From an uncultured Clostridia bacterium (GTDB lineage: Bacteria > Bacillota > Clostridia > TANB77 > CAG-508), in NCBI GenBank assembly GCA_944386165.1, contig CALXAA010000009.1, positions 1-64,000 on the forward strand: DNA of 64,000 bases, given 5' to 3'. Both the position numbers and the translations under genes were made by a program. Under the pieces are notes generated by a model. The model was not told the DNA's origin and made no database searches. It saw only the letters and a list, made by a program, of their open reading frames with translations. Positions 10,154-26,276 of the stretch are shown in pieces. Each line of letters begins with the position of its first letter. The first letter of the stretch is position 1.

Positions 10154-10239
10154 ATAATTACCTCGGAATAATTTTACTATAACTAAAAATAAATTGCAAT
10201 AAAATGTTGAATAATGTAGAAAAAAGACTTTGGAACTAA

Positions 10240-10642: not shown

Positions 10643-10671
10643 TTGAAAAGGTTTATAAATTATGATATAAA
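10643..10671 (+). promoter_or_regulatory. sigma-A promoter TTGAAA-N17-TATAAA
   Basis: The two hexamers lie 17 bases apart, 58 bases before the GNAT gene start. Between 10490 and this promoter I see only AT-rich sequence. Confidence 0.65.
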
Positions 10672-10728
10672 TAGAAGAGATTTAAAGTTGTTCAAAATTT
10701 CTGAGCAGTTTTTGGAAAAGAGGTAGCA

Positions 10729-11277
10729 ATGGAACAAAATAATGAATTAAAAGAAAAAATAATAATTAGAAAAGCAAAATATGATGACATTGAAACAATT
10801 GTAGATATAAATATCAAAGACTGGAAAAAAGTATATAAAGGAATAATAGATGATGAGATATTGGACAACTTAGATAAAAATAAAAAAATAGAAAAGATGA
10901 GAAAACATTATAATACTGAAAATATAATTGTAGCAGAAAAAAACAAAAATATCTTAGGATATTGCAGATATAATGATAATGCAGTTTATAAAAATTCTAA
11001 TATAGATTCAGAAATAATAGCTATATATGTTGATTATGACAATTTAGGCAATGGAGTAGGCAGAAAATTAGTAGAATATGTAATGACAGATTTAAAAAAT
11101 AAGAGAAAAAATAAAATGATAATTTGGTGTTTGGAGAAAAATAAAAATGCAAGAAGATTTTATGAAAAAATGGGTGGAAAATTAATAAATGATGAAAAAT
11201 ACTTTGAAAAAGAGGGAAAAAAATATAAAGAAGTAGGTTATGTCTTTGATATAAAAAAGCTTTATAGTGAACTATAG
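10729..11277 (+). CDS. GNAT-family N-acetyltransferase
   Basis: The 182-residue product starts at ATG 10729 behind AGAGGTAG. It has the GNAT fold order: IIIRKAKYDDIETIVDIN at the N-terminus, IAIYVDYDNLGNGVGRKLVE as the acetyl-CoA loop (G-x-G-x-G-like) and CLEKNKNARRFYEKMGGK near the end. It should transfer an acetyl group from acetyl-CoA to an amine; the substrate cannot be read from sequence. Confidence 0.85.
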   Translation: MEQNNELKEKIIIRKAKYDDIETIVDINIKDWKKVYKGIIDDEILDNLDKNKKIEKMRKHYNTENIIVAEKNKNILGYCRYNDNAVYKNSNIDSEIIAIYVDYDNLGNGVGRKLVEYVMTDLKNKRKNKMIIWCLEKNKNARRFYEKMGGKLINDEKYFEKEGKKYKEVGYVFDIKKLYSEL

Positions 11278-11313
11278 ATATGTATCATGTATATGGAAAA
11301 GGAGATGATATAT

Positions 11314-11931
11314 ATGACAAATAATCTAGTAAATAAAACAGAGAAAGACTTTGAAAGTATTAAACATGTAGATGAGAATAGAGTAGAATTTTGGTATGCT
11401 AGAGAACTAATGACAATGTTGGAATATAGTAAATGAGGAAATTTTGTTAAAGTAATTGACAAAGCAAAATAATCTTGCAAAAACAGTAATATTAATATAT
11501 TTGAACATTTTGCTGACGTCGGCAAAACGATAAAAATGCCGAAAGGGGCAGAAAAAATAATTGAAGATTTAAAACTAACCAGATACTCATGATATCTTAT
11601 AGCTCAAAATGAAGACAGTAGAAAAAAAGCAATAGCATTAGCACAAACTTATTTTGCAGTACAAACTAGGAAACAAGAAATAACAAGACAAGAATATGAA
11701 CAATTAAGTGAAGAAGAGAAAAGATTATATACTAGAAGAAATGTAAAAGATAAAAATAAATATTTATTTAGAATTACACAAACAGATGAAGTATTAAAAA
11801 ATAAGCAAATAAATAATGAAGAAGATGCTTATAAAACCCATCATAATGTAGGACAAGCAGTTAGAGAAACAAAAAGAATTAAAATAAATTATCATATCCA
11901 TTTAATTCTTAGAAGGTCAAAAAAGTTCTAA
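11314..11931 (+). pseudogene. dinD: decayed dinD (DNA-damage-inducible protein D) gene
   Basis: A ribosome binding site (AAGGAG) and ATG 11314 begin a frame that stays DinD-like from end to end but has three in-frame stops: TGA 11434, TAA 11470 and TGA 11590. Recognisable pieces are VEFWYARELMTMLEYSK, IEDLKLTRYS, AIALAQTYFAVQTRKQE, EEEKRLYTRRNVKDKNK, RITQTDEVLKN and HHNVGQAVRETK. A central block usual in DinD is missing between RRNVKDKNK and YLFRITQ. Elsewhere in the window TGA acts as a normal stop, so this is decay rather than recoding. It is an old SOS-linked or phage-type gene. Confidence 0.8.
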
Positions 11932-12082
11932 AATTTCAGTAGAAATATTGAAAATTTAGGATTTTTTTGTTATACAAAAGATTTTCGAAAGAAGAGTATA
12001 TTTAGAAGATTCACATATTTTGTTAAATAACATAAAATATAGCAGAATAACTACAAAAAATCCTAAAAAGAAAGGAGAGAAA

Positions 12083-12439
12083 ATGTCAAAATTTATAATA
12101 CAAGGTGGAAAAAAGTTAGAAGGAGAGGTAAAAAACTCTGGTTCAAAAAATGCAGCACTACCAATACTTGCTGCAACAATATTAAATGGTGGAAAAACGA
12201 CATTATATAATGTTCCAAATATTCAAGATGTAAATACAATGTTTGAAATACTAAAAGAAATAGGTGCAACAATTACAAGAAAAAATAATAAAGTCATAAT
12301 TAACACAAACAAAATACATACATATGAAATTCCAGACAATTTAATGAGAAAAATGAGGTCATCAGTAATACTTGCAGGAGCAATAATAGGAAAATATCAT
12401 AAAGCAAAGTTTTCATATCCAGGGGATTGCGATATTTGA
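12083..12439 (+). pseudogene. murA: murA 5' part, interrupted by the integrated element
   Basis: UDP-N-acetylglucosamine 1-carboxyvinyltransferase carries out the first committed step of peptidoglycan synthesis. ATG 12083 follows AAAGGAGAG. The visible part has the usual N-terminus (FIIQGGKKLEGEVKNSGSKNAALPILAA), here in order, and reaches AKFSYPG. After 12423 the sequence is element DNA, and the frame stops at 12439 as PGDCDI. The rest lies at 23657-24566. Joined, the pieces give 416 residues, a normal MurA length. As integrated, neither half should work, so the cell needs a second MurA or excision. Confidence 0.95.
12420..12423 (+). other. left attachment-site core (attL), CAGG
   Basis: The last murA bases shared with the right junction are CAGG. 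Left of them is murA; right of them (GGATTGCGATA) is element. A short shared core is normal for large serine recombinases. The exact crossover could lie at any base of the shared run. Confidence 0.85.
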
Positions 12440-12492
12440 TTGATACATCGGACAAGCATAAGATAAATGAGTGGATACAGGAATTTAAATAA
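12424..12492 (+). other. displaced 3' end of the serine recombinase gene
   Basis: In the frame set by the recombinase at the other end of the element, this reads 22 codons (GLRYLIDTSDKH ... IQEFK) and then TAA 12490. A terminator follows within 10 bases. In the excised circle it would be fused to codon 545 of the recombinase. In the integrated state it has no start and is silent. Confidence 0.8.
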
Positions 12493-12501
12493 TAAAACAG
12501 A

Positions 12502-12537
12502 TAAGCTTTAAAAGTAAAATTTTAAGGCTTATTTTTT
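12502..12537 (+). terminator. intrinsic terminator of the recombinase gene in the circular form
   Basis: AAGCTTTAAAA and TTTTAAGGCTT form a near-perfect stem followed by T6. It lies 10 bases after the displaced recombinase stop, where only a circular element would use it as that gene's terminator. Confidence 0.8.
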
Positions 12538-12611
12538 AACTTTAAAACTATACTAAAAATTATTTTAAAAACCACAAAATTGAACGTGAGGCGAAAGGAG
12601 ATGTAGAAAAT

Positions 12612-13157
12612 ATGGTAACACAAAAACTAAAAGGACTATGGATACCAGTAGAAGTTTTATTAAATAAAGATTTATCAGATAAAGAAAAGATAATACTATC
12701 TATGATTTTGTATTTAAGTGAAGAAACTAAAAGTTGTTTTGCAAGTAATAAATATATAGCAAATATAGTAAAGGTAAGTGCAGATAGAGTATCAAAAATA
12801 GTAACTTCTTTAAGAAAAAAGAATTATATAAAAGTAAAACTAAAATATAAAACAGATAGCAAAGAGATAGAAGAACGACAAATTTTACCTATAGTCGAAA
12901 ACATCAATAGGTGTAGTCAAAAACACCTAGAGGGTATAGATATAAATAACTATTCAGATAGTCAAAAGCAACCATACCCTATAGGTGATAATGACAAAGA
13001 TATAATAAATAATATAAAAAATAAAAATAATTATAATAAAGAGGACACACATAAAAAGAAAAATATTTCATATAGAAGTGACAGGTATGGCGATGACTTC
13101 AATTGGGATAGCTTATATGCAAATTATAAAGAGATTAGTGCTACTTCAAATGTATAG
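12612..13157 (+). CDS. helix-turn-helix protein of the element
   Basis: The 181-residue product starts at ATG 12612 behind GAAAGGAG. Residues about 1-85 form a winged-helix domain of the HTH_36/replication-initiator-like kind (LSDKEKIILSMILYLSEE, then ASNKYIANIVKVSADRVSKI). A Lys/Asn-rich linker and a short C-terminal segment follow. Such proteins are usual next to relaxase genes in Firmicutes mobile elements and may control replication or transfer genes; the function here is not proven. Confidence 0.7.
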   Translation: MVTQKLKGLWIPVEVLLNKDLSDKEKIILSMILYLSEETKSCFASNKYIANIVKVSADRVSKIVTSLRKKNYIKVKLKYKTDSKEIEERQILPIVENINRCSQKHLEGIDINNYSDSQKQPYPIGDNDKDIINNIKNKNNYNKEDTHKKKNISYRSDRYGDDFNWDSLYANYKEISATSNV

Positions 13158-13168
13158 CTAATCTCTTT
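13128..13168 (+). terminator. terminator hairpin overlapping the end of the HTH gene
   Basis: AAAGAGATTAG (13128-13138) pairs perfectly with CTAATCTCTTT (13158-13168). The stem spans the stop codon of the HTH gene and ends in a short T-rich run. Confidence 0.65.
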
Positions 13169-13176
13169 TAATTTGC

Positions 13177-13202
13177 CTAAAAAACTATGAATAGTTTTTT
13201 AG
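13177..13202. repeat. perfect 12-bp inverted repeat
   Basis: CTAAAAAACTAT and ATAGTTTTTTAG are separated by two bases. It lies between the HTH gene terminator and the origin of transfer, and may be a protein-binding site or a second terminator. Confidence 0.6.
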
Positions 13203-13244
13203 CAATCCCAAAATAAAAAAGTGAATTTTTATTTTAGATTGAAT

Positions 13245-13325
13245 GGGGTGTGGGGCGATGCCCTGCCACACGAAACACTTTTTGAAGCAGTGAGCTAAAA
13301 AAGTGTTGTAGTGTGTTACAAGACA
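13245..13325 (+). other. oriT: predicted origin of transfer (oriT) with MobV-type nick site
   Basis: TAGTGTGTTA (13309-13318) equals the pMV158 MobM nick sequence TAGTGTG/TTA, as I recall it from that family. Immediately before it, AACACTTTTT and AAAAAGTGTT form a 10-bp inverted repeat. A G+C-rich inverted repeat (GTGTGG..GGC/GCC..CCACAC) lies further upstream. The MobV relaxase gene begins about 100 bases downstream. Predicted cut: between 13315 and 13316. Confidence 0.75.
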
Positions 13326-13413
13326 ATTAAAAAAGAGCAGAATTTAAGAAATAAATATGTCTTATTAGCTAGTAGCACAAGAGAGAAACTAGCTGAGGCA
13401 AAGGAGGTTAGAG

Positions 13414-14601
13414 ATGAGTTATGCAATAATAAGAAACACAAAATACAAAAGAGAAAATCTAAAAGGAATATTTAGACACAACGAAAGAAGAAACAGAAAT
13501 TATTCAAATAATAATATAGATAAAGAAAAATCATATTTAAATTATTCAATAAAATCTCCACAATATAGTTACGAAAAGGAATTTGAACAAATACGAAAAC
13601 AATATGATTTGAAAGGACAAATAAAAGTAGTTAGTAATATAGCTTGTGAATATATAATAACATCAGATAAAGAATTTTTTGAGAGAATAGGAGAAGAAGA
13701 AACAAAAAGATATTTTGAAACAGCATATAAATTTGTAAGTGAATATAAAAATTTAGGAGAACAATATATATTATCTGCAAAAGTGCATATGGATGAACAA
13801 AGTCCACATATGCATTTAATTTTTTTACCTATTGTTCATACAAAAGATAAAAAAGGAAATGATATTGATAAACTAGCTTGTAGCGAATTTTGGAAAGCCA
13901 AAGATAGTTATAGACAACTTCAAAATGCTTTTTACAATTATATGGTATCAAATGGGTTTGAATTAGAAAGAGGTTTACCAAAGGAAGAAACAGGAAGAGA
14001 ACATATAGATTTGAAAGAATATAAAGAAATAACTAATTTTGAAAAAACAAAAGAAACTTTGAAAAATATAAAATTAGAATTGCCTAATCTTCCAAACATT
14101 GATGATATTAATATTAATAGATTGTCAAAGAAAAGAGATGAAAAGATTTTAGAAGAAATCATAAAACCAAAAGATGATGTTATTCAAAACTTATACAAAG
14201 ATAATTTGAATTTACATAGAGAATTATCAAGACAAACTAAAATAATTGAAAAAGCAGAAAAATATCAAAAAGAAAGAGATTCAATAATTACAGATAATGA
14301 AAAATTGCACAATCAAGTAGAAAATATTCAAGCAGAATATAAAGAAAAAGAATTTGATATGGAATGGAAATATAAAAGTAAAATAAAAAGTTTGGAAAAA
14401 GAAAATAACCATTTGCACAAAGTAGTAGAGAAGTTTTATGAGACAGTAGAAAAATTTATAGATTGGATTTGTCAAAAATTTGGTATTGGAGAATCTAAAG
14501 AATTAGTTAGAGAATTTGAAAAAGAAACTAATATGTATATTGATCCAAAGAAACAACTAAAAAAAGAAGAAAGAGCAAAAGAATGGGATTTGGAAATATA
14601 A
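13414..14601 (+). CDS. MobV-family (Pre/Mob) relaxase
   Basis: The 395-residue product starts at ATG 13414 behind AAAGGAGG. It should nick oriT, stay bound to the 5' end and pilot strand transfer. Motif I is FRHNERRNRNY with His22, the position of the catalytic His in pMV158 MobM. Motif III is HMDEQSPHMH (His125, Asp127, Glu128, His132, His134), the metal-binding set. The C-terminal half (about 245-350) is coiled-coil, usual for this family. A predicted oriT lies just upstream. With no secretion genes in the element, transfer must rely on another conjugative system. Confidence 0.93.
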   Translation: MSYAIIRNTKYKRENLKGIFRHNERRNRNYSNNNIDKEKSYLNYSIKSPQYSYEKEFEQIRKQYDLKGQIKVVSNIACEYIITSDKEFFERIGEEETKRYFETAYKFVSEYKNLGEQYILSAKVHMDEQSPHMHLIFLPIVHTKDKKGNDIDKLACSEFWKAKDSYRQLQNAFYNYMVSNGFELERGLPKEETGREHIDLKEYKEITNFEKTKETLKNIKLELPNLPNIDDININRLSKKRDEKILEEIIKPKDDVIQNLYKDNLNLHRELSRQTKIIEKAEKYQKERDSIITDNEKLHNQVENIQAEYKEKEFDMEWKYKSKIKSLEKENNHLHKVVEKFYETVEKFIDWICQKFGIGESKELVREFEKETNMYIDPKKQLKKEERAKEWDLEI

Positions 14602-14628
14602 GAGCAAACAAAATTTATTTGCTCTTAT
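14598..14628. terminator. hairpin between convergent genes
   Basis: ATAAGAGCAAA and TTTGCTCTTAT form a perfect 11-bp stem between the relaxase stop and the end of the minus-strand ribbon-helix-helix gene. Confidence 0.6.
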
Positions 14629-14633
14629 AACTA

Positions 14634-14822
14634 CTATTTCATATGTTTTAATGCAAATTCACAAGCAGATACTACGAAACCATTAAAAGAATATTCTTTT
14701 TTGTCTAGTCCTTCATTAGCTTTGTCAACAATTTCAATGATTTGAGAATTTATTTCAACAGGAAACCTAATACTTTTATAAATGTTAGCTTCGGTAGATT
14801 TTTTCATAACAAATTTATCCAT
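14634..14822 (-). CDS. small ribbon-helix-helix-type DNA-binding protein
   Basis: The 62-residue product starts at ATG 14822. The segment KSIRFPVEINSQIIEIVDKA followed by FNGFVVSACEFALKHM matches the beta strand and two helices of Arc/CopG-like (YlcI/YnfO-type) repressors. AGAGGTT lies before the start. A small regulator beside a relaxase typically represses transfer genes, or could be a recombination directionality factor; neither is shown. Confidence 0.65.
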   Translation of the reverse strand: MDKFVMKKSTEANIYKSIRFPVEINSQIIEIVDKANEGLDKKEYSFNGFVVSACEFALKHMK

Positions 14823-15086
14823 AAATATAACCTCTTTTCATATTATTTGAATTTTTTCGTTAGTTTAAAACCATTGAAAGAGTAAGAGCAAAAAAACTAA
14901 AAAAAACTTAACGACATGAAGTTAAGCGGTTTTTAATATAAAAAAATATAGAAAAATAGAAAGATTTAAAATTTACGACAGAAATAGCAAAAACGCTTGA
15001 TTTTTCAAGCGTTTTTGTAGATTTTTCAACTCACATTTGATATAATGTAATTGCTAAAAAACACAAACAAAGGAGTTGAAAAATCT

Positions 15087-16361
15087 ATGAATAATATATC
15101 ACAAATTTCAATATTTGACTATACTGAAATTGAAAATTTAGGAGATTTAGAAAAATTAAAATTGTTTTTAGAGAATGTAGAAGATGACGAATTATGTGAA
15201 ATACTTGAAAAAGAAAGAAAAAATGGAAGAAATGATTATCCAGTAAGAGCAATGTTAAATTCAATATATGCAATGAAAATATTTGAGCATAGAGGAATTG
15301 AATCATTAAGAAGAGAATTAAAAAGAAGTTCTCAATTAAGAACATTATGTGGATTTAATGAAGGAGAATATAAATTTTTAAAAAAGAGAAAACATTTAGT
15401 GCCACCAGCACGAGTGTATACAGGATTTATAAAAAGTTTAAAAAGGCATAAAAAGGAAATAGAAAAAATAAAGGAAGAATTAATAAAATTCATGTATGAA
15501 AATTTAAAAGATTTCGGAAAAGATTGTGCAGTAGATGGAAAATACTTAGATTCATATGGAAATCAATTTTACAAGAATAAGGCAAATGATGATAGAGGAG
15601 AACATGAAGCAACAAGCTCATGTAAAACATATTACATGAAAGATGGAACAACAAAGAAGGAATGGCATTATGGATATAGAGCACATATAATATGTGATGC
15701 AAAATATGGATTACCAATAAAAAGTAAAGTAACACCAGCAAATAATTCTGAACAAGTAGAATTAGATAATATGATAGAAGAAATGTCAGAAGGAGAAGAA
15801 AGATATAAATTAGAAAAAATGGAAAATCTAATGGGAGATGCTGGATATGACAATGGAGCAAGAAATAAAATCTTAAAAGAAGAATATAATATAAATCCAA
15901 TAATGGATATAAGACATATGTGGAAAGAAGAAAAATATAGAGAAGTAGAAAATCAAGAGCTTGCATATAATGAAGACGGAGAGGTATTTTTAATAATAGA
16001 TATAGAAAAACAAGAATATGAAAAACTAAAATATTTAGGATACGATAAAGAAAATCGAGCTTTAAGGTATGGAAGATATACAAAAGGAAAAAAAGTATAT
16101 AGAGTACCACTTTCAACAGATTATAGAATATTTGTACCAGTAGCAAGAGATAGTAAAAAATTTAAAACAAAATATAAAATGAGAACAGAAGTTGAAAGAT
16201 TAAATGGAAGGCTAGATAGAGATTATATGTTTAATGACCATTTTATACGAGGACAAGAAAAAATGGAATTAATGGTAGATTTAAGTTTTTTAGTAATGCT
16301 AACAATGGCAAAAGGGCATATAAAAAATAAACAAGAAAATATAAGAAGTTTAGTGGCATAA
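15087..16361 (+). CDS. DDE transposase (IS5/IS1182-like)
   Basis: The 424-residue product starts at ATG 15087 behind AAAGGAG. An N-terminal DUF772-like domain (YPVRAMLNSIYAMKIFEHRG) is followed by a DDE domain with Asp in CAVDGKYLDSYG, Asp in LMGDAGYDN and Glu in MRTEVERLNGRLDRDY. It is full length with no internal stop. A hairpin (AAAAACGCTTGA/TCAAGCGTTTTT, 14991-15018) and a TATAAT box lie upstream. I could not find matching terminal inverted repeats or a target duplication, so whether this is a free insertion sequence within the element is unsettled. Confidence 0.85.
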   Translation: MNNISQISIFDYTEIENLGDLEKLKLFLENVEDDELCEILEKERKNGRNDYPVRAMLNSIYAMKIFEHRGIESLRRELKRSSQLRTLCGFNEGEYKFLKKRKHLVPPARVYTGFIKSLKRHKKEIEKIKEELIKFMYENLKDFGKDCAVDGKYLDSYGNQFYKNKANDDRGEHEATSSCKTYYMKDGTTKKEWHYGYRAHIICDAKYGLPIKSKVTPANNSEQVELDNMIEEMSEGEERYKLEKMENLMGDAGYDNGARNKILKEEYNINPIMDIRHMWKEEKYREVENQELAYNEDGEVFLIIDIEKQEYEKLKYLGYDKENRALRYGRYTKGKKVYRVPLSTDYRIFVPVARDSKKFKTKYKMRTEVERLNGRLDRDYMFNDHFIRGQEKMELMVDLSFLVMLTMAKGHIKNKQENIRSLVA

Positions 16362-16538
16362 GTAGATAATATGAAATTATGTAAATATAAAATAAGGATA
16401 TTGTGCTCTTTTTATACTGGAAATATTTACCATACAAATAATAACTATAAAAAATATCAAATTAAGAAAAAAAGACGTATATTTTTTTTAAAATAAATAA
16501 AAAAACGTTACAAACGAAAAAATTCAAGTTTACAAAAT

Positions 16539-16567
16539 TTGCAAAATGCAAGAAAATGTGGTATTAT
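16539..16567 (+). promoter_or_regulatory. promoter of the DGR variable-protein gene, TTGCAA-N17-TATTAT
   Basis: The -35 and -10 hexamers are 17 bases apart, with TGG before the -10 (extended -10). A small hairpin ATGGC/GCCAT lies in the leader, and TAAGGAGG precedes the start codon. The rest of 16362-16538 is AT-rich with nothing recognised. Confidence 0.7.
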
Positions 16568-16629
16568 TAACATAATGGCAATAGCCATGTTGAAACCGTT
16601 ATAAAATTATCACTTAAGGAGGTATAACT

Positions 16630-17535
16630 ATGAAACGGTATGAAAAATTTGTGCTTGAGGCAGAAAAGGGTATAACCTTTGAAGTCTCAGAGGGAACAAG
16701 TGGAGAGTTAATTATCAGAGCTCTGAACATTGCTACAGCCAATGTCTACTCTACAAACTATGTAAATCCTCCAATTCCAGAAGGATATAAGCATGTCTGT
16801 GGAGAATGGAACAATGGATTTGTAATTGAAAGATGTTCTGATGGAAGCCAGTTTGTATGGATTCCTGTTGGAAGTCTCGACTCTAATGGAACACTTGATG
16901 GAGATCATTTTTCGGAGAAATTCGGCAGACGGGATTATATGAACAATGAATTTTCGGATGATGAATTCAATGAAGCTTTAAATGATGAACTGCTTGAACA
17001 ATTTGAAAGTGTTAAGAAATATGGGGGATTTTATATTTCTCGTTATAACATTTCAAAAAATTCAGAAGGAAAACCACAGTCGGTAAAAGGCGTTATGCCG
17101 TGGGTAAACATCAATTTTGATGATGCCAAGAAGGTTGCATCCACTATCGAAGATAATGAAGCAGTTAAGAGTCATCTGACTTTTGGTGCAGAATATGATT
17201 CGGTATTGGAATGGTTTATCAAAACGCAAGTTAAAACTCTTGCTGAAATTGCAGAGGACTCTACTGAATGGGGCAACCATTGGAATACAGAGAATTCTCC
17301 GAAGAAAGTAGTTGAAACAGGAAGCAGAGAAGAATGGTGTGCTAATAACATCTACGACTTTGCAGGTAATGTAGATGAATGGACACAAGAACAGAACGAA
17401 AGTTCGTATCGTGTTATCCGTGGTGGCTATTACAACAATGTTGGTGTCGATTATCCTGTAGCCTATCGCAATTACTGCTATCCTTTTAACCTCTTTAGCA
17501 GCACTGGTTTTCGTGCCACGCTTTATATTAAGTAG
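16630..17535 (+). CDS. DGR variable (target) protein with FGE-sulfatase/C-type lectin fold
   Basis: The 301-residue product starts at ATG 16630 behind AAGGAGG. Residues about 50-301 resemble formylglycine-generating-enzyme-type domains, the commonest DGR display scaffold: GGFYISRYNIS (132-142), VMPWVNINFDDAKKVA, YDFAGNVDEWTQE (242-254), VIRGG (262-266) and a GFRATL ending. Residues 259-301 are encoded by the variable repeat, where 10 of 14 template Asn codons have changed. It should bind a variable ligand rather than act as an enzyme. No signal peptide or membrane helix is visible. G+C and codon use are clearly higher than in the neighbouring avd and RT genes, which suggests a separate origin. 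Confidence 0.92.
   Translation: MKRYEKFVLEAEKGITFEVSEGTSGELIIRALNIATANVYSTNYVNPPIPEGYKHVCGEWNNGFVIERCSDGSQFVWIPVGSLDSNGTLDGDHFSEKFGRRDYMNNEFSDDEFNEALNDELLEQFESVKKYGGFYISRYNISKNSEGKPQSVKGVMPWVNINFDDAKKVASTIEDNEAVKSHLTFGAEYDSVLEWFIKTQVKTLAEIAEDSTEWGNHWNTENSPKKVVETGSREEWCANNIYDFAGNVDEWTQEQNESSYRVIRGGYYNNVGVDYPVAYRNYCYPFNLFSSTGFRATLYIK
17403..17533 (+). repeat. DGR variable repeat (VR), 131 bp
   Basis: It aligns with the template repeat at 19034-19165 at a constant offset of 1631. The first 25 bases are identical. The core then has 17 substitutions, every one at a template adenine (to T, G or C). An identical stretch ACTGGTTTTCGTGCCACGCT forms the initiation-of-mutagenic-homology region. After it come one C/T change and a one-base gap, then ATATTAAGT again identical. 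It encodes the C-terminus of the variable protein. Confidence 0.95.
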
Positions 17536-17580
17536 CACTGACCACTGTAAAACTATCCTAATTTGTTTCCAAACACAGAT

Positions 17581-17629
17581 AGAAGGAGAGAACTTTGAAA
17601 TTTCAGAGTCTCTTCTTCTTTTTTTTTGA
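17581..17629 (+). terminator. hairpin with T-run just downstream of the VR
   Basis: AGAAGGAGAGAACTTTGAAA pairs imperfectly with TTTCAGAGTCTCTTCTTCT and is followed by T8. It ends the target gene. A hairpin soon after the VR is also known to aid retrohoming in the Bordetella phage DGR, so it may have a second role. Confidence 0.7.
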
Positions 17630-17644
17630 AAGGGGATATATGAG

Positions 17645-18013
17645 ATGGAAAAAAACAAAGATAACAGATTGGTAATAATAGTAAAAATAGAAAAGTATAT
17701 TGAATATATGCTTACAATATTACTTAAACTTCCAAGAACAGAAAAATTTAGTATAGGAACAGAAGTAAAGACAAGTATGTATGAAATGCTAAAAAATATT
17801 CTTTTAGCAAGTAAAATAGATAAAAGTAAAAGACTACAAATTTATAATATCGTTGATAGTAATATATATTATCAAAGAATTTGTATAAGAATGATGTATA
17901 ATCAAAAATGGATAGATGAAAAGAAATACAAACATAGCAACGAGTTACTAGCTGAAATTGGAAAAATTTTAGGAGGACTTATTAAATCTCTAGAGGTGAA
18001 GAAATATGCCTAA
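17645..18013 (+). CDS. avd: DGR accessory variability determinant (Avd)
   Basis: The 122-residue, all-helical basic protein matches the size and style of Avd four-helix bundles. In known DGRs, Avd forms a barrel-shaped pentamer that binds the reverse transcriptase and the template RNA and is needed for cDNA synthesis. Motif-like pieces are IEKYIEYMLTILLKLPRTEK and LQIYNIVDSNIYYQRICIR. The start is ATG 17645 behind AAAGGGG. It overlaps the reverse transcriptase gene by 8 bases, so the two are translationally coupled. Confidence 0.88.
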   Translation: MEKNKDNRLVIIVKIEKYIEYMLTILLKLPRTEKFSIGTEVKTSMYEMLKNILLASKIDKSKRLQIYNIVDSNIYYQRICIRMMYNQKWIDEKKYKHSNELLAEIGKILGGLIKSLEVKKYA

Positions 18014-19019
18014 AACAATTAAAAATATATATGATAATTCAGTATCGTTTGAAAATTTACTAAAAGCACATAAAAAAGCAAGATGTGGAAAAAGAGAAAA
18101 GAAAAAAATAATATTGTTTGAGTTAAAACTAGAACAAGAATTATTAGAATTAGAGAAACAATTAAAAAATGGTACATACAAACATGGTGGTTACACAAAA
18201 TTTAAAATATATGAGCCAAAAGAAAGAATAATTATGGCATCAGAATATAAGGATAGAGTAATACATCAATGGTATGTCGAAAAATTTATAAAGCCATACT
18301 TTGTACCACAATTTATTAGTACATCATATGCTGGAATAGAAGGAAGAGGAATGCATAAAGCGTCTAAAGATGTTCAAAAAGCAATGAGAAGTGCAAAATC
18401 TAAATGGAAGAATTATTACATATTAAAAATGGATGTTACAAAGTATTTTCAAAATATAGACAAAAGAATACTTTGGGAAATATTAAAAAGAAAAATGAAG
18501 GATAAAAAGTTACTATGGTTAACTAGAGAAATTTTATTATCTACAGAAGGCATGGTAGGACTTCCTTTAGGTAATTATACATCTCAAATGTTTGCTAATA
18601 TATATTTAAATGAATTAGATCAATATGTTAAACACAAATTAAAATGCAGATATTATTACAGATATATGGATGATATGGTTATAATGTGCGAAAATAAAGA
18701 AATTGCAAAAGATAGTTTAAATAATATAACTAAATTTTTAAAAGAAAATTTAAAATTAACTTTAAACTCAAAAACAAGAATTTTTAAAGATATACAAGGG
18801 GTTAATTTTTGTGGTTATAAAATCAATGAGAAAAGACTAAAAATAAGGCATACAAGTAAATGTAGAATGAAAAGAAAATTAAAAAGATATACAAGACAAT
18901 TGAAAGAAGGCAAAATAACATTACCTGAGATACAAAGAAGTATAGCAGGTTGGCTAGGCTATGTTAAACATGCAGATTCTTATAATTTAAGAAAAAGTAT
19001 GTTTTATATAGAGGGATAG
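18006..19019 (+). CDS. DGR-type reverse transcriptase
   Basis: The 337-residue product starts at ATG 18006, within the end of avd, behind GAGGTG. Motif 3 is MDVTKYFQNID (catalytic Asp143), motif 4 is LPLGNYTSQ (186-194) and motif 5 is YMDD (220-223). The LGxxxSQ form of motif 4 is the mark of the DGR clade; group II intron enzymes have QG instead, and there is no maturase or endonuclease domain. It copies template-repeat RNA with errors at adenines. The template repeat begins 15 bases after its stop. Confidence 0.95.
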   Translation: MPKTIKNIYDNSVSFENLLKAHKKARCGKREKKKIILFELKLEQELLELEKQLKNGTYKHGGYTKFKIYEPKERIIMASEYKDRVIHQWYVEKFIKPYFVPQFISTSYAGIEGRGMHKASKDVQKAMRSAKSKWKNYYILKMDVTKYFQNIDKRILWEILKRKMKDKKLLWLTREILLSTEGMVGLPLGNYTSQMFANIYLNELDQYVKHKLKCRYYYRYMDDMVIMCENKEIAKDSLNNITKFLKENLKLTLNSKTRIFKDIQGVNFCGYKINEKRLKIRHTSKCRMKRKLKRYTRQLKEGKITLPEIQRSIAGWLGYVKHADSYNLRKSMFYIEG

Positions 19020-19033
19020 ACTTTAAAAAGGCA

Positions 19034-19165
19034 TTCGTATCGTGTTATCCGTGGTGGCAATTACAACAATAATGGAAACAATTATCCTGTAGCCTATCGC
19101 AATTACAACAATCCTAATAACAACTATAACAACACTGGTTTTCGTGCCACGCTCTAATATTAAGT
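19034..19165 (+). repeat. DGR template repeat (TR), 132 bp
   Basis: This is the invariant donor for the VR. Its core holds about 36 adenines and 14 AAY (Asn) codons; randomising AAY gives many amino acids but no stop codon. Translated in the VR frame it reads SYRVIRGGNYNNNGNNYPVA at first, then more Asn, and hits a stop right after GFRATL. It has no start codon of its own and is expected to act as RNA. Order VR-avd-RT-TR, all on the plus strand. Confidence 0.95.
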
Positions 19166-19311
19166 CAGATTATATATTTTATGGAATATATACAGTATAG
19201 GTATTAGATATTAAAGGAAGTCTATTCCTTCTTAAAAGCAATTTTAAGTAAATATGAATTATAAAAGTATATGTATTAGTAAATTGAAAAATTGAATATA
19301 TGTATACTTTT
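19166..19311 (+). ncRNA. candidate 3' spacer of the DGR template RNA
   Basis: A stretch of 146 bases without a gene lies between the TR and the convergent DUF6076 gene. It contains a small hairpin AAGGAA/TTCCTT (19214-19230). In the Bordetella phage DGR, about 140 bases downstream of TR fold, bind Avd and prime cDNA synthesis. The matching position and length suggest the same here; there is no direct proof. Confidence 0.45.
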
Positions 19312-20472
19312 CTATTTCCAATACAAACCACTTAATTTCTTCAATTCTATTTTAAAATCTTCTATTTGTTCATTAGTATAAGTATCTCTTAATTCTCTAG
19401 CTTTTTCAGACCATTCTTTGAATTGTTTTTCTTTAAATTCTTTCGTATGATTATAGTGTAAACCATGCATTCTTTTATATTCTCTGTTGTATTCCTTTAA
19501 AATTGAACTATTTTGAACTTTTTCTTTTTGTTTATTTAATGCTCCAATTTCTTTACAAGTTTTTCCAGTATTTAAATATAAGTTATTGCAATATTTTTGG
19601 TCATTTCTTCCTTTTTGATTTGGATTTTTACTACTGGTTACAGGAATAAATAATTTTCCACAATTTTCACATTTATTGATAGTAAAATTATTTTGAATTA
19701 CTTTAAATAACTCAAATCTAATTTGTTCTTCCGTATTTTCCAATTCATAGACTTCTTCTACTGCTATATGCTTTTCTTTTATTAATTTAACTACATCCTC
19801 TACATCTAATCTTCTTTCTTGTAGTGATAACCCTTTATCACATACATATTTTGTTTTAAATTTAGTATCTAAAAAAATTGCATGTGCTGGATTAATATTA
19901 AGATAGTGTATGTCAAAAACTCGTTTTGCCTCATATAAATATAGTCTTTCTTCTGTACTTAAATTTCTTACAATAGAGTTATTAGAATATTTATTTATCA
20001 ATTCTAATCTCTTTTTTAAATCAGTCTTTTTTTCCATAAGATTTTCTATTAATAAGTCTCTTATAGTTTCAAAGTATTTTATATATTCATTATGTTTTTT
20101 AGTCGATACTTTTTCAATGTTATAAGTAAATTCATGAAGGATAAGCTCTATTGTATAAGGGTTTTCTTGTATTTCCTCATAAAGTTCTTTCGCATAGTAT
20201 TTTGGATTTTCAATAAAAACGCCAATTTGAGATTTAAATAATAGGTCAGTTCTAAATACTTTAGAATTATATGTTTTAACAATTATATCTATTAAGACTT
20301 GTGTATAAAAATGAGTATATGGAGAAAATTCTAAACATGCTCTAACTATTTGAAACATTTTAAAGAAACAATTCAATTTTTCATCCATAGTATCTGCTTC
20401 TTTAGCAGTACATAGTAGTTCTATTAATTGTGTATAAATTGCCTTCAATTTATCAAAATCTTCATAACTCAT
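19312..20472 (-). CDS. DUF6076-type zinc-finger protein (N-terminus probably frameshifted)
   Basis: The 386-residue frame is mostly helical. A Cys-x2-Cys ... Cys zinc motif lies around residue 280 (CENCGKLFIPV ... YCNN ... CKEIG), as in DUF6076 proteins of clostridial mobile elements, followed by a coiled-coil, Lys-rich tail. The listed ATG 20472 has no ribosome binding site. A better start is ATG 20593 (GGAGG at 20604-20608), whose frame would join this one if one base were removed from an A6 run. Function is unknown. It is convergent to the DGR. Confidence 0.6.
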   Translation of the reverse strand: MSYEDFDKLKAIYTQLIELLCTAKEADTMDEKLNCFFKMFQIVRACLEFSPYTHFYTQVLIDIIVKTYNSKVFRTDLLFKSQIGVFIENPKYYAKELYEEIQENPYTIELILHEFTYNIEKVSTKKHNEYIKYFETIRDLLIENLMEKKTDLKKRLELINKYSNNSIVRNLSTEERLYLYEAKRVFDIHYLNINPAHAIFLDTKFKTKYVCDKGLSLQERRLDVEDVVKLIKEKHIAVEEVYELENTEEQIRFELFKVIQNNFTINKCENCGKLFIPVTSSKNPNQKGRNDQKYCNNLYLNTGKTCKEIGALNKQKEKVQNSSILKEYNREYKRMHGLHYNHTKEFKEKQFKEWSEKARELRDTYTNEQIEDFKIELKKLSGLYWK

Positions 20473-20593
20473 TATTGCAAATTCATAAAGTTTATCTCCA
20501 ATATTATATTCAAAATCATGAGTAGCACCGAAAAACTCTCCGATTATTTTTTATTACAATTTTATTATTTTTAAGTGTGAAATTAGTTATCAT

Positions 20594-20931
20594 ATCAATG
20601 TTTCCTCCATTTTCAAAAATAGAATATAGCTATTTCGATTTTTAATTTATCTATAGACTTGCAAAAATGTATTTACAACACTTTTTAAGGCTCTTATAAT
20701 AAAAATTGCAAGTAGAAAATAGCACGTGTAAATAATTATTTTCTATTATAGTATAGCACATTGAAAATTGAATAGCAAACTACAAGCACAGATAATGAAA
20801 CTTTCGTCTGGCTAACGTGATGTAAAGGGGCGATTCTCTAAAAAGAGGAATGAGGGCAAATCTCATATGGGATTAAATCCACTTGTGGCTTTTAGTAATA
20901 AGGACAAAGAATAAAACAATATAATTTATAA
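20594..20931 (+). other. intergenic region with inverted repeat and several hairpins
   Basis: No gene is seen. TAGAAAATA (20713-20721) and TATTTTCTA (20737-20745) form a perfect 9-bp inverted repeat that may be an operator. From about 20810 to 20895 the sequence is richer in G+C than its surroundings, with short stems in a row: ATTC.TCT/AGAGGAAT, ATGAG/CTCAT, GGAT/ATCC and CCAC/GTGG. This could be a structured leader RNA for the small ORF downstream. Confidence 0.4.
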
Positions 20932-21117
20932 ATGGAAGTGGAGGTGAATACACTGGAAAAGCAGAATAAGAAAGATACAAATACTAATAAAAAAGCAAAA
21001 GACAAACTACCATTTGCAGTTTTTATATGTCCAAAATTAAATATGGGTGATAGTAAAGATTATAAACAGGTATTCACCGATATTATATCTGATAGAATAC
21101 AAGAAAAATACAAATAA
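20932..21117 (+). CDS. small hypothetical protein of the element
   Basis: A frame of 61 codons: a Lys/Asn-rich head, then LPFAVFICPKLNMGDSKDY and a short tail. The start is uncertain: ATG 20932 has no ribosome binding site, while GGAGGTG at 20941-20947 would serve a start a few codons later, where only CTG is found. I recognise no family. Its size and place in the element would suit a regulator or directionality factor, but nothing in the sequence proves this. Confidence 0.4.
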   Translation: MEVEVNTLEKQNKKDTNTNKKAKDKLPFAVFICPKLNMGDSKDYKQVFTDIISDRIQEKYK

Positions 21118-21181
21118 AAATGATAAAAACAATTGCATAAATTATTCATTTTATGCTAAAATAGATAAGGAGGAGAAAAAA

Positions 21182-21508
21182 TTGAACGAAGATTTATTAA
21201 ATATTGAAATTATAAGAGAATATATAGCAAAAAGAAAAATAGATTGGACAAAGCATTGCTTAAACAGATTAAATCAAAGAAATATTTTAATATCTGATGT
21301 GAAAACTGCAATTAATAATGGAAATATAATAGAATATTATTATGATGATTATCCATATCCAAGTTGCTTGATTTTAGGATATAATACAAATAATAAGATA
21401 ATACATATAGTATGTGGAGTAAGTGAAGACACTGTTCATATGATAACGGCATATTATCCAAATACGGATAAATGGGAAGAAAATATGAAAACAAGGAGGA
21501 AAAAATAA
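21182..21508 (+). CDS. DUF4258-domain protein, likely toxin of a toxin-antitoxin pair
   Basis: The 108-residue product starts at TTG 21182, fixed by AAGGAGGAG seven bases upstream. WTKHCLNRLNQRNILISDV, then YPYPSCLILGYN and IIHIVCGV, are typical of DUF4258, a small fold related to mRNA-cleaving toxins of the RelE/MqsR kind. Its stop overlaps the next start by one base (TAATG), giving tight coupling with a YgiT-type zinc-finger gene. This pairing is common in mobile elements and is read as toxin plus antitoxin by analogy with MqsRA. Confidence 0.75.
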   Translation: MNEDLLNIEIIREYIAKRKIDWTKHCLNRLNQRNILISDVKTAINNGNIIEYYYDDYPYPSCLILGYNTNNKIIHIVCGVSEDTVHMITAYYPNTDKWEENMKTRRKK

Positions 21509-21738
21509 TGAATTGTTTTATGTGTAAAGGAAATCTAGAAGAAAAGAAAGTAAATTATGTAGTTGATTTAGAAGATACAATTATTATTATTAAAGGAGTT
21601 CCAGCAAAAGTATGTACTCAATGTGGAGAACAATACTTTGATGATGAAACAGCAGAAAACATTGAAAAAATTGTAAATCAGTTAAAGCAATTAGCAACAG
21701 AAGTAACAATTGTAAATTATAAAGAAAAGGTTGCATAA
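21508..21738 (+). CDS. YgiT-type zinc-finger protein, likely antitoxin
   Basis: The 76-residue product starts at ATG 21508 behind AAGGAGG. Two Cys pairs (MNCFMCKGNLEEKK and VCTQCGEQYFDDE) form the MqsA/YgiT N-terminal zinc finger. The protein is shorter than MqsA and lacks its C-terminal HTH. It probably neutralises the DUF4258 protein and helps retain the element. Confidence 0.8.
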   Translation: MNCFMCKGNLEEKKVNYVVDLEDTIIIIKGVPAKVCTQCGEQYFDDETAENIEKIVNQLKQLATEVTIVNYKEKVA

Positions 21739-21841
21739 TATTAAAAATAAAAAATTATTTGATTTTGATTGTATAATATAGTATACTAATAATAGCTTTA
21801 AAGTAAATGTACTGTTTAAGTCAGCAGTAATCACATAAACT

Positions 21842-21879
21842 AAGAATTAGGTGCGGTAAACCCTAGTTCTTATTTTTTT
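21842..21879 (+). terminator. intrinsic terminator
   Basis: AAGAATTAGG and CCTAGTTCTT form a stem with a G-rich loop, followed by T7. It separates the toxin-antitoxin pair from the recombinase promoter. Confidence 0.8.
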
Positions 21880-21930
21880 GAATAAAAATGAAATTTACAT
21901 GTAAAATGTCTATAAAATTTAATAAAAATA

Positions 21931-21959
21931 TTGAAAATCTTCAAGTTTTAATATATAAT
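21931..21959 (+). promoter_or_regulatory. recombinase promoter, TTGAAA-N17-TATAAT
   Basis: Near-consensus hexamers with 17-base spacing, 62 bases before the recombinase start. The gene therefore has its own strong promoter. Confidence 0.8.
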
Positions 21960-22021
21960 AGCGACAATAAAGTAACACATAAAGTGAAATGTTATTGATG
22001 CATTATAAATGGAGGTGCAAA

Positions 22022-23665
22022 ATGAAAAAGTCTAATGAAGAAAAAAGAGTTGTAATTTATTGCAGAGAAAGTAGAGATGACTATGGTGAAAACTATGAAA
22101 GAATTGAAACACAAAGAGATTTACTTATAAAATATTGTAAAGGTCATGGATATACAAATATAGTAGGTATTATAATGGATGATGACAAAAGTGGTACAGA
22201 CTTTAGTAGATTTGATGATATAAGAGAAAGAGCAAAAAATAAAGAAATAGATGTAATCATTTTTAAAAACTCTGCAAGACTTGGAAGAAATCAAAAGGAA
22301 GCATTAGACTTTGTAGAATACCTAGAAGAACAAGGTGTAGAAATAATATTTGAAGATGAACAATATAATGAAGAAATGTTTGGACTATATGCGTGGTTTA
22401 ATGAAAGAAGAGCAAGAGATGATAGTAAAAATATAAGAAGAAATTTAAGACATAAAATAGAAGAAGGAGATTTACTCGTGAAAGCAATTTATGGATATAA
22501 CAAAGATGGAAAAAAATTAGTAATAAATGAAGAAACAGCTCCTGCCGTCAAAGAAATATTTGAATTATATTCTAAAGACTGGGGGTATCAAAAGATTGCA
22601 ACTTATTTGAATAAAAAAGGAATACCAACACCATCTCAAAGCAGAAATTTTGCAAATGCAAAACAAACTGCAAATTGGAAAGCACAGCATATAGTAAGAA
22701 TATTAGATGACAGAAGATATATTGGAGATTATGTAGGGGGACATACTGAAAAAGTAAGTTTTAAATCCAAAAAAACAAGAGTAAAAGATGAGTCAGAATG
22801 GACTATAATTGAAAACCATCATGAGCCAATTATTGATAAAGAATTATTTGAAAAAGTACAAAAAATTAGAAAGAAAAGAAAAAAAGAAAGTGATAAATAT
22901 AATAATGGTTTCAAGTTTGTAGATGTAGAAAACAATTTATACTCAGGACTTTTGTATTGTGGAAGATGTGGAACTGCAATGTATAAAAGAAAAGGAACAA
23001 GTGGAACAAGAAAAAGACCAGATAGTTATTTATGTAAAAAATATTGTAATGAGGGAGCAATAAAGGATATAAGACCAGATTATGGTTGTAAACCTCATAG
23101 AGTTAGGATTGAGTATTTAGACCAAATCGTAAATGCTTATATAGATAACTTAATTAGCAATCCAGAATTTAAAGATTTTGTAATGAACAATGTAAAAGCA
23201 ATTAATACAAATAAAGATACTTTAGAAAAAGATTTAAATAAACAAAAGCAAGCTATAGAAAAATTAGAAAAACAATTCAAACAAGTATATGAAGATAAGC
23301 TAAATGACCTAATTCCAGAATTTATATATAAAGACAAAAAGCAAGAATTAGAAAAGAAGTTAAAAAATGAAAAGGAAAAATTACAAGAAACAGAAAACAA
23401 GTTTAATACATTAAATAAACTAGAAGATAAAGAAGATTTAATCTTCAAAGCAATAGATGACATCAAGAAAAATGGACTAACAAAAGAAGAACTATCAAGA
23501 TTATTTGATAAAATCGTAGTATTTGATCCAAAAGAAATAACAAAAGAGCAAAAGGAAGAATATAACCTAAATGATGAAATGTACAAAGAACTCTATGAAA
23601 ATGGAGGTCTAGCATTCCATTTGAAGTTTATGTATCCACAAACTATCACAAACAGGAGGATGTGA
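22022..23665 (+). CDS. large serine recombinase of the element (integrated-form C-terminus)
   Basis: The 547-codon product starts at ATG 22022 behind GGAGGTG. The resolvase domain has nucleophile Ser17 in VIYCRESRDD and FKNSARLGRN. A recombinase domain (about 150-270), a zinc ribbon (LYCGRCGTAMYKRK ... CKKYC) and a long coiled coil (about 380-470) follow. It should integrate and excise the element. The last codons cross the right att core: 23656 is element, while the Arg-Met-stop after it is coded by murA. In the circle the frame continues 22 codons into the left end. No terminator follows in the integrated state, so transcripts run into the murA 3' part. Confidence 0.94.
   Translation: MKKSNEEKRVVIYCRESRDDYGENYERIETQRDLLIKYCKGHGYTNIVGIIMDDDKSGTDFSRFDDIRERAKNKEIDVIIFKNSARLGRNQKEALDFVEYLEEQGVEIIFEDEQYNEEMFGLYAWFNERRARDDSKNIRRNLRHKIEEGDLLVKAIYGYNKDGKKLVINEETAPAVKEIFELYSKDWGYQKIATYLNKKGIPTPSQSRNFANAKQTANWKAQHIVRILDDRRYIGDYVGGHTEKVSFKSKKTRVKDESEWTIIENHHEPIIDKELFEKVQKIRKKRKKESDKYNNGFKFVDVENNLYSGLLYCGRCGTAMYKRKGTSGTRKRPDSYLCKKYCNEGAIKDIRPDYGCKPHRVRIEYLDQIVNAYIDNLISNPEFKDFVMNNVKAINTNKDTLEKDLNKQKQAIEKLEKQFKQVYEDKLNDLIPEFIYKDKKQELEKKLKNEKEKLQETENKFNTLNKLEDKEDLIFKAIDDIKKNGLTKEELSRLFDKIVVFDPKEITKEQKEEYNLNDEMYKELYENGGLAFHLKFMYPQTITNRRM
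23653..23656 (+). other. right attachment-site core (attR), CAGG
   Basis: CAGG matches the left core; AGGATGTGAAATAGG of murA follows. The inferred empty site is TATCCAGG-AGGATGTGAA, the MurA codons for Tyr-Pro-Gly-Gly-Cys-Glu. Confidence 0.85.
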
Positions 23666-24566
23666 AATAGGAGCAAGACCAATTGACTTACACCTAAAAG
23701 GATTTGAAAAACTAGGAATAAAAATAAATGAAGAATTTGGAGAAATAGTATGTGAAAGTGATAAAATAATAGGAAACCAAGTAAGTCTAGATTTCCCAAG
23801 TGTAGGAGCAACAGAAAACATTATTTTAGCAGCATGTTTAGGAGAAGGAACAACAATTATAACAAATGCAGCCAAAGAGCCAGAAATTGAAGATTTAGTA
23901 AAATATTTAAACAGAATGGGAACAAAAATAAAAGGAGCAGGAACAGATAAAATAGAAATAACAGGAGTAAAACATTTATCAGAAGTAAGTTATAACATTA
24001 TGCCAGATAGAATAGAAGCGGGAACATACCTAATTGCAGGAGCAATTACAGGAGGAGAAATAAAAATAACAAATGCAAACCATGAACATATTGAGCCAAT
24101 TCTAACAAAATTAGAAGAAGCAAATTGTAAAATACAGGTTAACAAAAATGAAATTGAAATAATTGCTCCAAAAAGAGTAAAAGCAGTAGATATTAAAACA
24201 ATGCCATATCCAGGATTTCCTACAGATATGCAATCTGTTTTCGGAGCATTACTTGCAACTGCAAAAGGAACATCCATTATAACAGAAAACATTTTTGAAA
24301 GCAGATATAAATATGTTCAAGAATTAGTTAGAATGGGAGCAAAAATAAAAGTTGAAGGCAGAAGTGCAATAATAAAAGGTACAAGAAAATTCCAAGGAGC
24401 AAATGTTGTTGCAACAGATTTAAGAGGTGGTGCAGCACTAGTTATAGCAGGATTAGCAGCAAAAGGAATTACAGAAGTTGAAAATGTTGACTATATTTTA
24501 AGGGGATATGAAAATATGGAACAAAAGTTAAAAAAACTAGGAGCAAAAATTTATTTAGAAAACTAA
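23657..24566 (+). pseudogene. murA: murA 3' part, cut off by the integrated element
   Basis: It begins inside the Gly-Gly-Cys active-site loop (GGCEIGARPIDLHLKG; this Cys corresponds to E. coli Cys115 and binds phosphoenolpyruvate and fosfomycin) and runs intact to TAA 24564. Later MurA motifs are present (PDRIEAGTYLIAGA, PGFPTDMQ, ATDLRGGAALVIAGL). It has no start codon or ribosome binding site in frame at the junction; the first in-frame ATG is 23916, too late for an active enzyme. Read-through from the recombinase promoter would transcribe it. Confidence 0.95.
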
Positions 24567-24639
24567 TATTTTTTAATGTATAAAAAATTTTTTCAGTTGT
24601 GTAAATAAAAGTAAATTATATATAAATTGGTCAAATAAA

Positions 24640-24694
24640 AAAGCGACAGTTTGCTTTTCTAAAATATTAGAAATTCAAACCATGTCGCTTTTAA
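24640..24694. terminator. bidirectional intrinsic terminator
   Basis: AAAGCGAC pairs with GTCGCTTT with A/T tracts at both sides, between murA (+) and the VanW gene (-). Confidence 0.75.
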
Positions 24695-24707
24695 CATTAG
24701 ATAAGTA

Positions 24708-26276
24708 TTATGGATGTTTCTGAATAATTGCTTTTTGAGGCTTATAAGTATCTGTAGAAAGAAGAGTTCTAGAAATCTCTTTATCACCTAAAGAAACAAT
24801 TTTATAAACAGAACATTTATAACCATATTTTCCAGTTTGTTTAACAAATTCTTGACCAACAGGAATCTGTGATGAATACTCATATGTTGTATCATAGTCA
24901 ATTTTTTCTATAGTTTCTACATCTAAAGATACAGTATATTCTTGCTCTTCTTTTACTCCATAAATAGATATTGTAATTATTCCAGAATTTGCAGTAGCAA
25001 CAATTTTTATTGGATAATTCCTAGAATTCTTAAATTGAAAATCTATGCTACCATAAGATACTGTTGCATCTTGACCTATTGGAACATAATTAACAGTCAT
25101 ACTATGATTTTTTCTTTCAACAATATCTAAATTAGCAAACAAAACAGCATTATATAATGTTGATGATATTTGACATATACCTCCGCCAATGCCATAATCT
25201 AATTCTCCATCAGAATAAATAATTGCATCTTTAAAACCATTTTTTGTAGTTCTTTCACCAACTACTTTATTAAAAGAAAATACTTCTCCAGGTTGAAGAA
25301 CAGTTCCATTAATTTTTTCGCAAGCAAGAATTAAATTTGTTGCTCTATTCGTATTTGTTGCATCATATTTTGTAGGAAATGAAGAAATTTTATATCCAAA
25401 AATATCTTCACCTAAATCAGCAACAGTAATTTCAGCATCTGTATATTTTAAAGGAATAGAGATTTCTGTTATATCAGGATTAGAAATTAATTGTTTAGCC
25501 TCATCTACAGAAATTGCAAAATCCACTCCTTGTTTTTCAACTGAAACACTATAAGGTTCTTTTGTAACAGAAGCATTTTGAGGTTCACAATACACTTCTG
25601 AATAAATTTTATCAATATCTACTTCTTGTGCTGAAACTTTATTAACTGGTAATGTAATATTTTTTTCATTATTTAATATTGCAGAAATAAGCAATTCTTT
25701 TGTTTTATCTATGTCTAAAGTATTTCCATCAGTTCCTTTTGTAACAATTAATTCATCATTTGAAATATAATAACTTGGTTCAATAACAAGATTTGGAATT
25801 TCAACACTAATATTTTCAATAATATTATCTAATTTATCTGTATCATAGTTTATAGATGGTGTTATATTATTTTTTTTAAAAGCAGAAAATAGAAGTGTAA
25901 AATTATTAGTCAAAATATTTCCTGTTCTACCAATACTATAAGCTTTTTCTAAAGAAGATGGAATATCATAAGAAAAATTTATTTCAGCAGGTAAAAAAGT
26001 AGTTGTGTAATCTTCAAAATTTATTGAAATTTCTTGTGACAAATTATTTTCAAATTCTTTCTCTAATTTTTCCTTTGCCTCATTAGTTGAAAGAGAAGAA
26101 ACTGAAATACCATTAATATATACATTGTTTATTATTTTGCGATTACCAATATTCATTAGAGATAAAAATGTCAATAAAAAAAGAAAAGCAATAATAATTG
26201 CAGCAATAATTACAGGAACAAAGCTGATAACTTTATTTTTTTTATTATTACGTTTTCTAATAAGTCTATCACGCAT
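24708..26276 (-). CDS. VanW-family protein with membrane anchor
   Basis: The 522-residue product has a membrane helix at about 14-40, then two PG_binding_4-like regions and a VanW domain (about 290-430) with FNKVVGERTTKNGFKDA and GIGGGICQISSTLYNAVL. A G5-like C-terminal segment follows. It is similar to YoaR of Bacillus and probably acts at the outer face on peptidoglycan; the activity is not known. The start is ATG 26276, with AAAGGG upstream and its own promoter. Confidence 0.88.
   Translation of the reverse strand: MRDRLIRKRNNKKNKVISFVPVIIAAIIIAFLFLLTFLSLMNIGNRKIINNVYINGISVSSLSTNEAKEKLEKEFENNLSQEISINFEDYTTTFLPAEINFSYDIPSSLEKAYSIGRTGNILTNNFTLLFSAFKKNNITPSINYDTDKLDNIIENISVEIPNLVIEPSYYISNDELIVTKGTDGNTLDIDKTKELLISAILNNEKNITLPVNKVSAQEVDIDKIYSEVYCEPQNASVTKEPYSVSVEKQGVDFAISVDEAKQLISNPDITEISIPLKYTDAEITVADLGEDIFGYKISSFPTKYDATNTNRATNLILACEKINGTVLQPGEVFSFNKVVGERTTKNGFKDAIIYSDGELDYGIGGGICQISSTLYNAVLFANLDIVERKNHSMTVNYVPIGQDATVSYGSIDFQFKNSRNYPIKIVATANSGIITISIYGVKEEQEYTVSLDVETIEKIDYDTTYEYSSQIPVGQEFVKQTGKYGYKCSVYKIVSLGDKEISRTLLSTDTYKPQKAIIQKHP

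Follow-up and report, generated by a model that had tools for sequence, protein, structure and literature searches.

The stretch of DNA analysed here (the window) comprises 64,000 nucleotides, and a compact set of genes and repeats lies between its positions 14848 and 19310, most of it belonging to a diversity-generating retroelement (DGR) in the order target, Avd, reverse transcriptase (RT), template repeat and structured RNA:

14848 to 16524, + strand, IS1182-like insertion sequence with terminal inverted repeats of ~16 bp (TTGAATTTTTTCGTT)
16575 to 16632, + strand, leader of the target gene: hairpin ATGGC-AATA-GCCAT, AACCG and a ribosome-binding site, common to orphan target copies
16630 to 17535, + strand, DGR target gene, 301 aa, with VR at its 3′ end and a weak FGE-sulfatase (C-type-lectin-like) C-terminal part
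17403 to 17522, + strand, VR core
17532 to 17547, + strand, motif GTAGCACTGACCACTG over the target stop codon
17645 to 18013, + strand, Avd, 122 aa
18006 to 19019, + strand, DGR reverse transcriptase, 337 aa
19034 to 19153, + strand, TR (template repeat)
19152 to 19310, + strand, RT-14 RNA (RF02921), starting at the 3′ end of TR

The initial annotation had placed the whole feature at 16630-19165 and had described a gap-free VR/TR core in which all 17 changes fall on adenine. Realignment bore out the core parts, with TR 19034-19153 matching VR 17403-17522 without gaps at an offset of 1631 and with 17 mismatches, every one of them at a TR adenine (A>T 10, A>G 6, A>C 1), while the 3′ limit of the feature moves to 19310 once the structured RNA is included. 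For 17 randomly placed differences all to land on A, given 39 A in the 119 nt of TR, the hypergeometric P is ~3e-10. The two repeats are identical at both edges, over 25 nt on the 5′ side (17403-17427) and 21 nt on the 3′ side (17502-17522), as had been claimed for the flanks, and a codon-by-codon comparison gave the same count as before of template Asn codons altered in VR (10/14) with no stop introduced; indeed a stop codon is unreachable by any A substitution in the TR reading frame. The repeat ends had been set too far out, since reaching 17533 and 19165 requires a 1-nt gap, and the gap-free core ends at 17522 and 19153. Just beyond it lies an 18th TR/VR difference, a C>T at 17523, which probably marks the IMH/IMH* boundary and is not a mutation, because relatives have a conserved boundary at the matching position, reading GCTC in TR and GCTT in VR. 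In the 1.68-Mb genome of the window, the search found one VR partner for the TR and no second one. A TR-like match on contig C4 was considered as a further repeat and rejected as a chance match within an IF-2 gene.

The Avd and the LGxxxSQ/YMDD reverse transcriptase of the initial annotation were both recovered. The Avd protein scored 72.8 bits against Pfam bAvd (cut-off 40), matched the PHROG Avd family and reached 78.6 bits against NCBIfam DivGenRetAVD (cut-off 80), and the RT carries the motifs LGNYTSQ and YMDD. A grouping of the RT with group II introns, which had been put forward for checking, was not seen: in the tree it falls with the DGR RTs of BPP-1, BalMu-1, Prosthecochloris and Bacteroidota, apart from three group II maturases, with 100/100 support. 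Its best PDB match is the reverse transcriptase entry 8ub7, which we take to be the BPP-1 enzyme (165 bits versus 78 for a group II RT). Identity as a group II intron was rejected on a score of 137 bits (cut-off 300) and on the separate clade, no group II intron RNA was found at the Rfam threshold within 9000-28000, and membership among retrons and DRTs was likewise rejected at scores far under the curated cut-offs. Judged from its sequence, the locus belongs to the Avd-containing DGRs and is complete.

A scan of genome contigs yielded 35 loci, and self-comparison, which covered these plus the loci of the genus, found ~30 A-directed TR/VR pairs. When TR-to-VR replacements were pooled over nine close loci including the window, they affected 158 of 347 A, 15 of 305 T, 15 of 259 C and 6 of 160 G, the non-A counts being inflated by two loci, L008 with its 15-nt VR duplication and L010 with differences in the 5′ flank; non-adenine differences, which the initial annotation had suggested looking for, thus do not dominate elsewhere. 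The other check that it had proposed, for VR variants over a constant TR in related genomes, found that pattern: TR is nearly constant while VR changes between relatives, and target genes compared with that of the window, in comparisons between species-level genomes, differ at 46-67% of the TR-A positions, at 1-8% of positions elsewhere in VR and at 2-6% outside VR. From this distribution it follows, as far as sequences can tell, that mutagenic retrohoming has acted repeatedly in the lineage. Two similar repeats 1.6 kb apart might also be put down to ordinary gene conversion, to recombination or to nothing but selection, the RT nearby then being an unrelated one of the group II, retron or DRT kind, and the profiles of other RT systems do give weak matches; however, all differences are at A and run in one direction, the same holds in the ~30 loci, and the RT sits in the DGR clade and far under the group II, retron and DRT cut-offs, so that this explanation is already contradicted and strikes us as extremely improbable. 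The duplication in L008 (9375-9522) is an in-frame repeat of 15 nt (CCNTTTAACAACTAT) inside VR, and perhaps arose by template slippage during cDNA synthesis.

The "active hypermutation" of the initial annotation stands for the lineage, by comparison, whereas for the present cell we infer activity. It could be that a DGR once active in the lineage has fallen silent here because the IS1182-like insertion changed or stopped its expression: the insertion lies ~100 bp upstream of the target, ~260 bp of adjacent DNA has been lost with it, it is missing at the corresponding place in most relatives, and decay is evident in nearby DGRs, with an L005 RT (10001-11011) whose frame is broken by a stop at codon 306, an L027 RT (110-1028) that lacks residues 1-166, and machinery lost altogether at L178. 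Yet none of RT, Avd, TR, RT-14 RNA and target is damaged in the window, and the target keeps its promoter-like leader on the downstream side of the insertion, and we regard silence as unlikely. In relatives a small ORF for a ~50-aa single-TM protein is found directly upstream of the target (L005, ~8300-8480, and the same place in L007, L009, L011 and L013); in the window the IS1182-like insertion stands in its place.

A hairpin or cruciform 4-34 bp behind VR is usual in phage DGRs but is not a defining feature, and none of the BPP-1 type was found at that distance behind the VR of the window; the nearest strong hairpin, ~60 nt behind VR, looks like a terminator. BPP-1 requires the hairpin behind its VR (PMC3240598). 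What is conserved at this place in the relatives is the motif GTAGCACTGACCACTG, which is present 3′ of VR and missing 3′ of TR. It recurs in DGRs of the same clade that have unrelated target bodies (L015-L029) and in orphan targets, and a looser form is found in a clade with ~55% identical RTs. We infer that GTAGCACTGACCACTG is a candidate target-recognition element and a candidate substitute for the BPP-1 hairpin.

The RNA 3′ of TR scores 84.2 bits against Rfam RT-14, above the curated gathering score of 48.1, and begins at the TR end in 11/11 relatives tested. Across the genus 58 hits exceeded the cut-off: 43 follow a DGR-RT hit on their own strand at a distance of 136-310 nt, six are near an RT in another arrangement and nine have no RT hit nearby; none of 14 control genomes had a hit. 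In 14 sequences the two main helices keep 98-100% of their pairs, with both partners changed in 11 pairs, and none of 500 shuffles showed covariation as high, in a test biased in favour of the structure in that it was taken from the same alignment. Compared with the Rfam entry, the position of the RNA is here fixed exactly at the 3′ end of TR and a role is proposed: the spacer 3′ of TR in BPP-1 recruits RT-Avd and primes the cDNA (PMC12875486), and by analogy RT-14 RNA would be its counterpart. A literature search found no paper connecting RT-14 to DGRs. A related DGR at L197 (G053:C41, ~3300-8300, RT 1040-2170) has eight TR-like copies in tandem, each followed by a weak RT-14-like RNA (37-41 bits). 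Its single VR, in a 526-aa FGE-like target, is closest to TR3, with 15 of 17 differences at A, against 28-33 differences to the other TRs, and TR5 itself appears A-rewritten relative to TR7/8 (13/18). L197 is possibly a multi-template DGR; several TRs per DGR have precedent elsewhere (PMC6642488).

Of the C-type-lectin-fold target in the initial annotation, the position of VR at the C terminus stood, and the fold is weakly supported by sequence, the window protein scoring 20.8 bits against Pfam FGE-sulfatase, under the cut-off of 23.3 (the best relative reached E 1.5e-6). A PDB profile search gave 1y4j (sulfatase modifying factor 2) as the best match, a suggestive one (E 0.05), and an AlphaFold model of the target with 14 relatives was set aside at pLDDT 38. 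Neither a signal peptide nor a TM segment was evident in the target or its close relatives when the sequences were read by eye, and no target relatives were found in viral contigs. The product is predicted to be a lectin-like binding protein that lacks an evident export signal. As to its role, we would guess, at somewhat less than even odds, that it binds a ligand inside the cell or after non-classical release. The same DGR might instead diversify a secreted or surface adhesin, which we hold possible though rather doubtful: the majority of characterised DGR targets are phage tail or surface proteins (PMC8867640) and longer FGE-like proteins are numerous in the genus, but this reading has against it that no export signal is evident and that the RT has no close relatives in viral contigs or phages (best 38-41%). 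With plasmids included, no RT match among those listed exceeded 41.1% identity. The FGE-like domain of the target has up to 34 matches per genome in the genus (G002, G033, G060, G061 and others), many of them in genomes or contigs that have no close DGR RT. The target gene has a G+C content of 38%, against 24-25% for Avd and RT and ~26% for the window, and orphan copies are also richer than their surroundings. The hairpin of the leader, for which Rfam gave no match, varies in sequence yet stays complementary and is followed by AACCG, in DGR-linked and in orphan targets (L172, L181, L182 and others).

The DGR is enclosed by a larger insertion in the cell-wall gene murA, with the following parts:

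12083 to 12423, + strand, interrupted murA, 5′ part
12424 to 23656, + strand, putative integrative mobilizable element in murA, ~11.2 kb, with CAGG at 12420-12423 and 23653-23656
12612 to 13157, + strand, replication-initiator-like HTH protein of the element
13414 to 14601, + strand, MobV relaxase (NCBIfam MobV, 127.7 bits versus 100)
19312 to 20472, − strand, DUF6076 protein, part of the element backbone
21989 to 23665, + strand, large serine recombinase of the element
23657 to 24566, + strand, interrupted murA, 3′ part

The 5′ part of murA stops at the first CAGG and the gene resumes after the second; the empty site is represented by intact murA genes of relatives, and a second intact murA lies on contig C8 of the window genome. 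Besides the DGR and the IS1182-like element, the insertion contains the replication-initiator-like protein, MobV, DUF6076 and the large serine recombinase, and thus the site-specific recombinase, the defined attachment ends and, in relatives, the empty site of an integrative mobilizable element. The relaxase comes without a conjugation apparatus of its own, MobV being above its cut-off and the list of ORFs in the element holding no further large genes. The recombinase was found in 12 of 96 genomes of the genus, adjoining the murA 3′ part in 11 and ending at a contig edge in one. In other genomes this murA site is occupied by elements whose cargo is different, and at L138 and L140 the backbone of replication-initiator-like protein, MobV and DUF6076 is present without a DGR; conversely, DGRs with ~80% identical RTs occur in other contexts, several of them beside distant serine recombinases. 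In this genus codon ~115 of murA is a recurrent insertion site of serine-recombinase elements with varied cargo (L132-L138, L140). The predicted attP, ACAAACAGG joined to GGATTGCGATA, appears inside the recombinase gene (window 12420-12490 and 23600-23665); in the circle form the recombinase frame would run on into RGLRYLIDTSDKHKINEWIQEFK and a stop at the left end, a tail that integration swaps for RRM and a stop, and the extension frame is kept in 14/17 related left ends. Such a tail swap could influence integration versus excision. Taken together, the gene content and the ends suggest that murA harbours a putative integrative mobilizable element with the DGR as its cargo and that this element may be transferred. 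DGRs on plasmids and conjugative elements are already known (PMC8867640), for instance on Prosthecochloris pPAES01, likewise as cargo of transferable DNA, whereas the carrier here is small, encodes MobV and a serine recombinase and sits in murA; no paper describing such a carrier was found in a literature search, which is not proof of absence.

It is thus highly probable that the locus is a complete Avd-type DGR, carried as cargo by a putative mobilizable element in murA and working as in BPP-1, from which most of the proposed mechanism is carried over by analogy. RT and Avd would bind an RNA spanning TR and RT-14 RNA; cDNA synthesis would begin at the 3′ end of TR, primed within RT-14, with misincorporation at template A; and retrohoming would put the cDNA in place of the VR in the neighbouring target gene, with the identical VR 3′ end as anchor and GTAGCACTGACCACTG behind VR probably serving as a second one. 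Shared with the mtd-avd-TR-brt cassette of BPP-1 are the A-specific TR-to-VR changes, Avd, an RT of the same clade with the GxxxSQ motif, a spacer RNA 3′ of TR and the position of VR at the 3′ end of the target gene. The two differ in gene order (target-Avd-RT-TR-RNA here, target-Avd-TR-spacer-RT in BPP-1), in carrier (a mobilizable element here, a phage there) and in what lies behind VR (a conserved sequence motif here, a hairpin there). The DGR machine itself is of a known kind; what the analysis adds is the carrier, the RT-14 assignment, the conserved motif 3′ of VR and the orphan targets.

Lone copies of the target with 85-88% protein identity are present in genomes G081, where the orphan sits between what look like asnS and murA, and G077, and their VRs differ from the window TR at A in 21 of 23 and 19 of 24 cases, respectively. 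At L178, 18 of 22 VR differences from the window TR are at A, and the locus resembles what is left of an element after loss of its DGR machinery; because its body has diverged by 30% yet the non-A sites of its VR by only 3.7%, we read its VR as overwritten from the same TR lineage. Distant target paralogs show no A bias. The target cassettes are ~1.1 kb long with shared leader and terminator, and no small repeats that would account for movement of the orphan cassettes were seen on reading their flanks. Homing in trans from the DGR of G081 itself as the last event at orphan L172 is unsupported, the orphan VR having none of the changes private to the TR of that genome and the RT there being truncated. 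Nor is trans homing needed to explain the orphans, since leftover targets are known in Treponema (PMC4891356). The DGRs of Treponema denticola likewise have targets with A-biased VRs away from the core and in machinery-free genomes (PMC4891356); RT context, target family and carrier differ from those described here, where the targets form ~1.1-kb cassettes with shared leader and terminator. A further reading is that DGR machinery and diversified targets travel separately in the genus, the mobilizable element with RT, Avd and TR-RT-14 rewriting in trans dispersed intracellular lectin-like genes that share the promoter/leader and the motif behind VR. Orphan targets whose VRs are A-rewritten agree with such a scheme, yet DGRs that were lost and left their targets behind explain them equally, and we consider the scheme improbable; if true, it would amount to a transferable, repertoire-like recognition system.

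For DGR biology, the orphan targets, together with the conserved sequence 3′ of VR, open the choice of target to experiment in a Gram-positive DGR, and the Rfam family RT-14 acquires a specific, testable function: an RNA placed after TR that may prime the cDNA. A DGR that is the exchangeable cargo of a small, putatively mobilizable element at a defined chromosomal site would bear on how DGRs spread among gut Clostridia.
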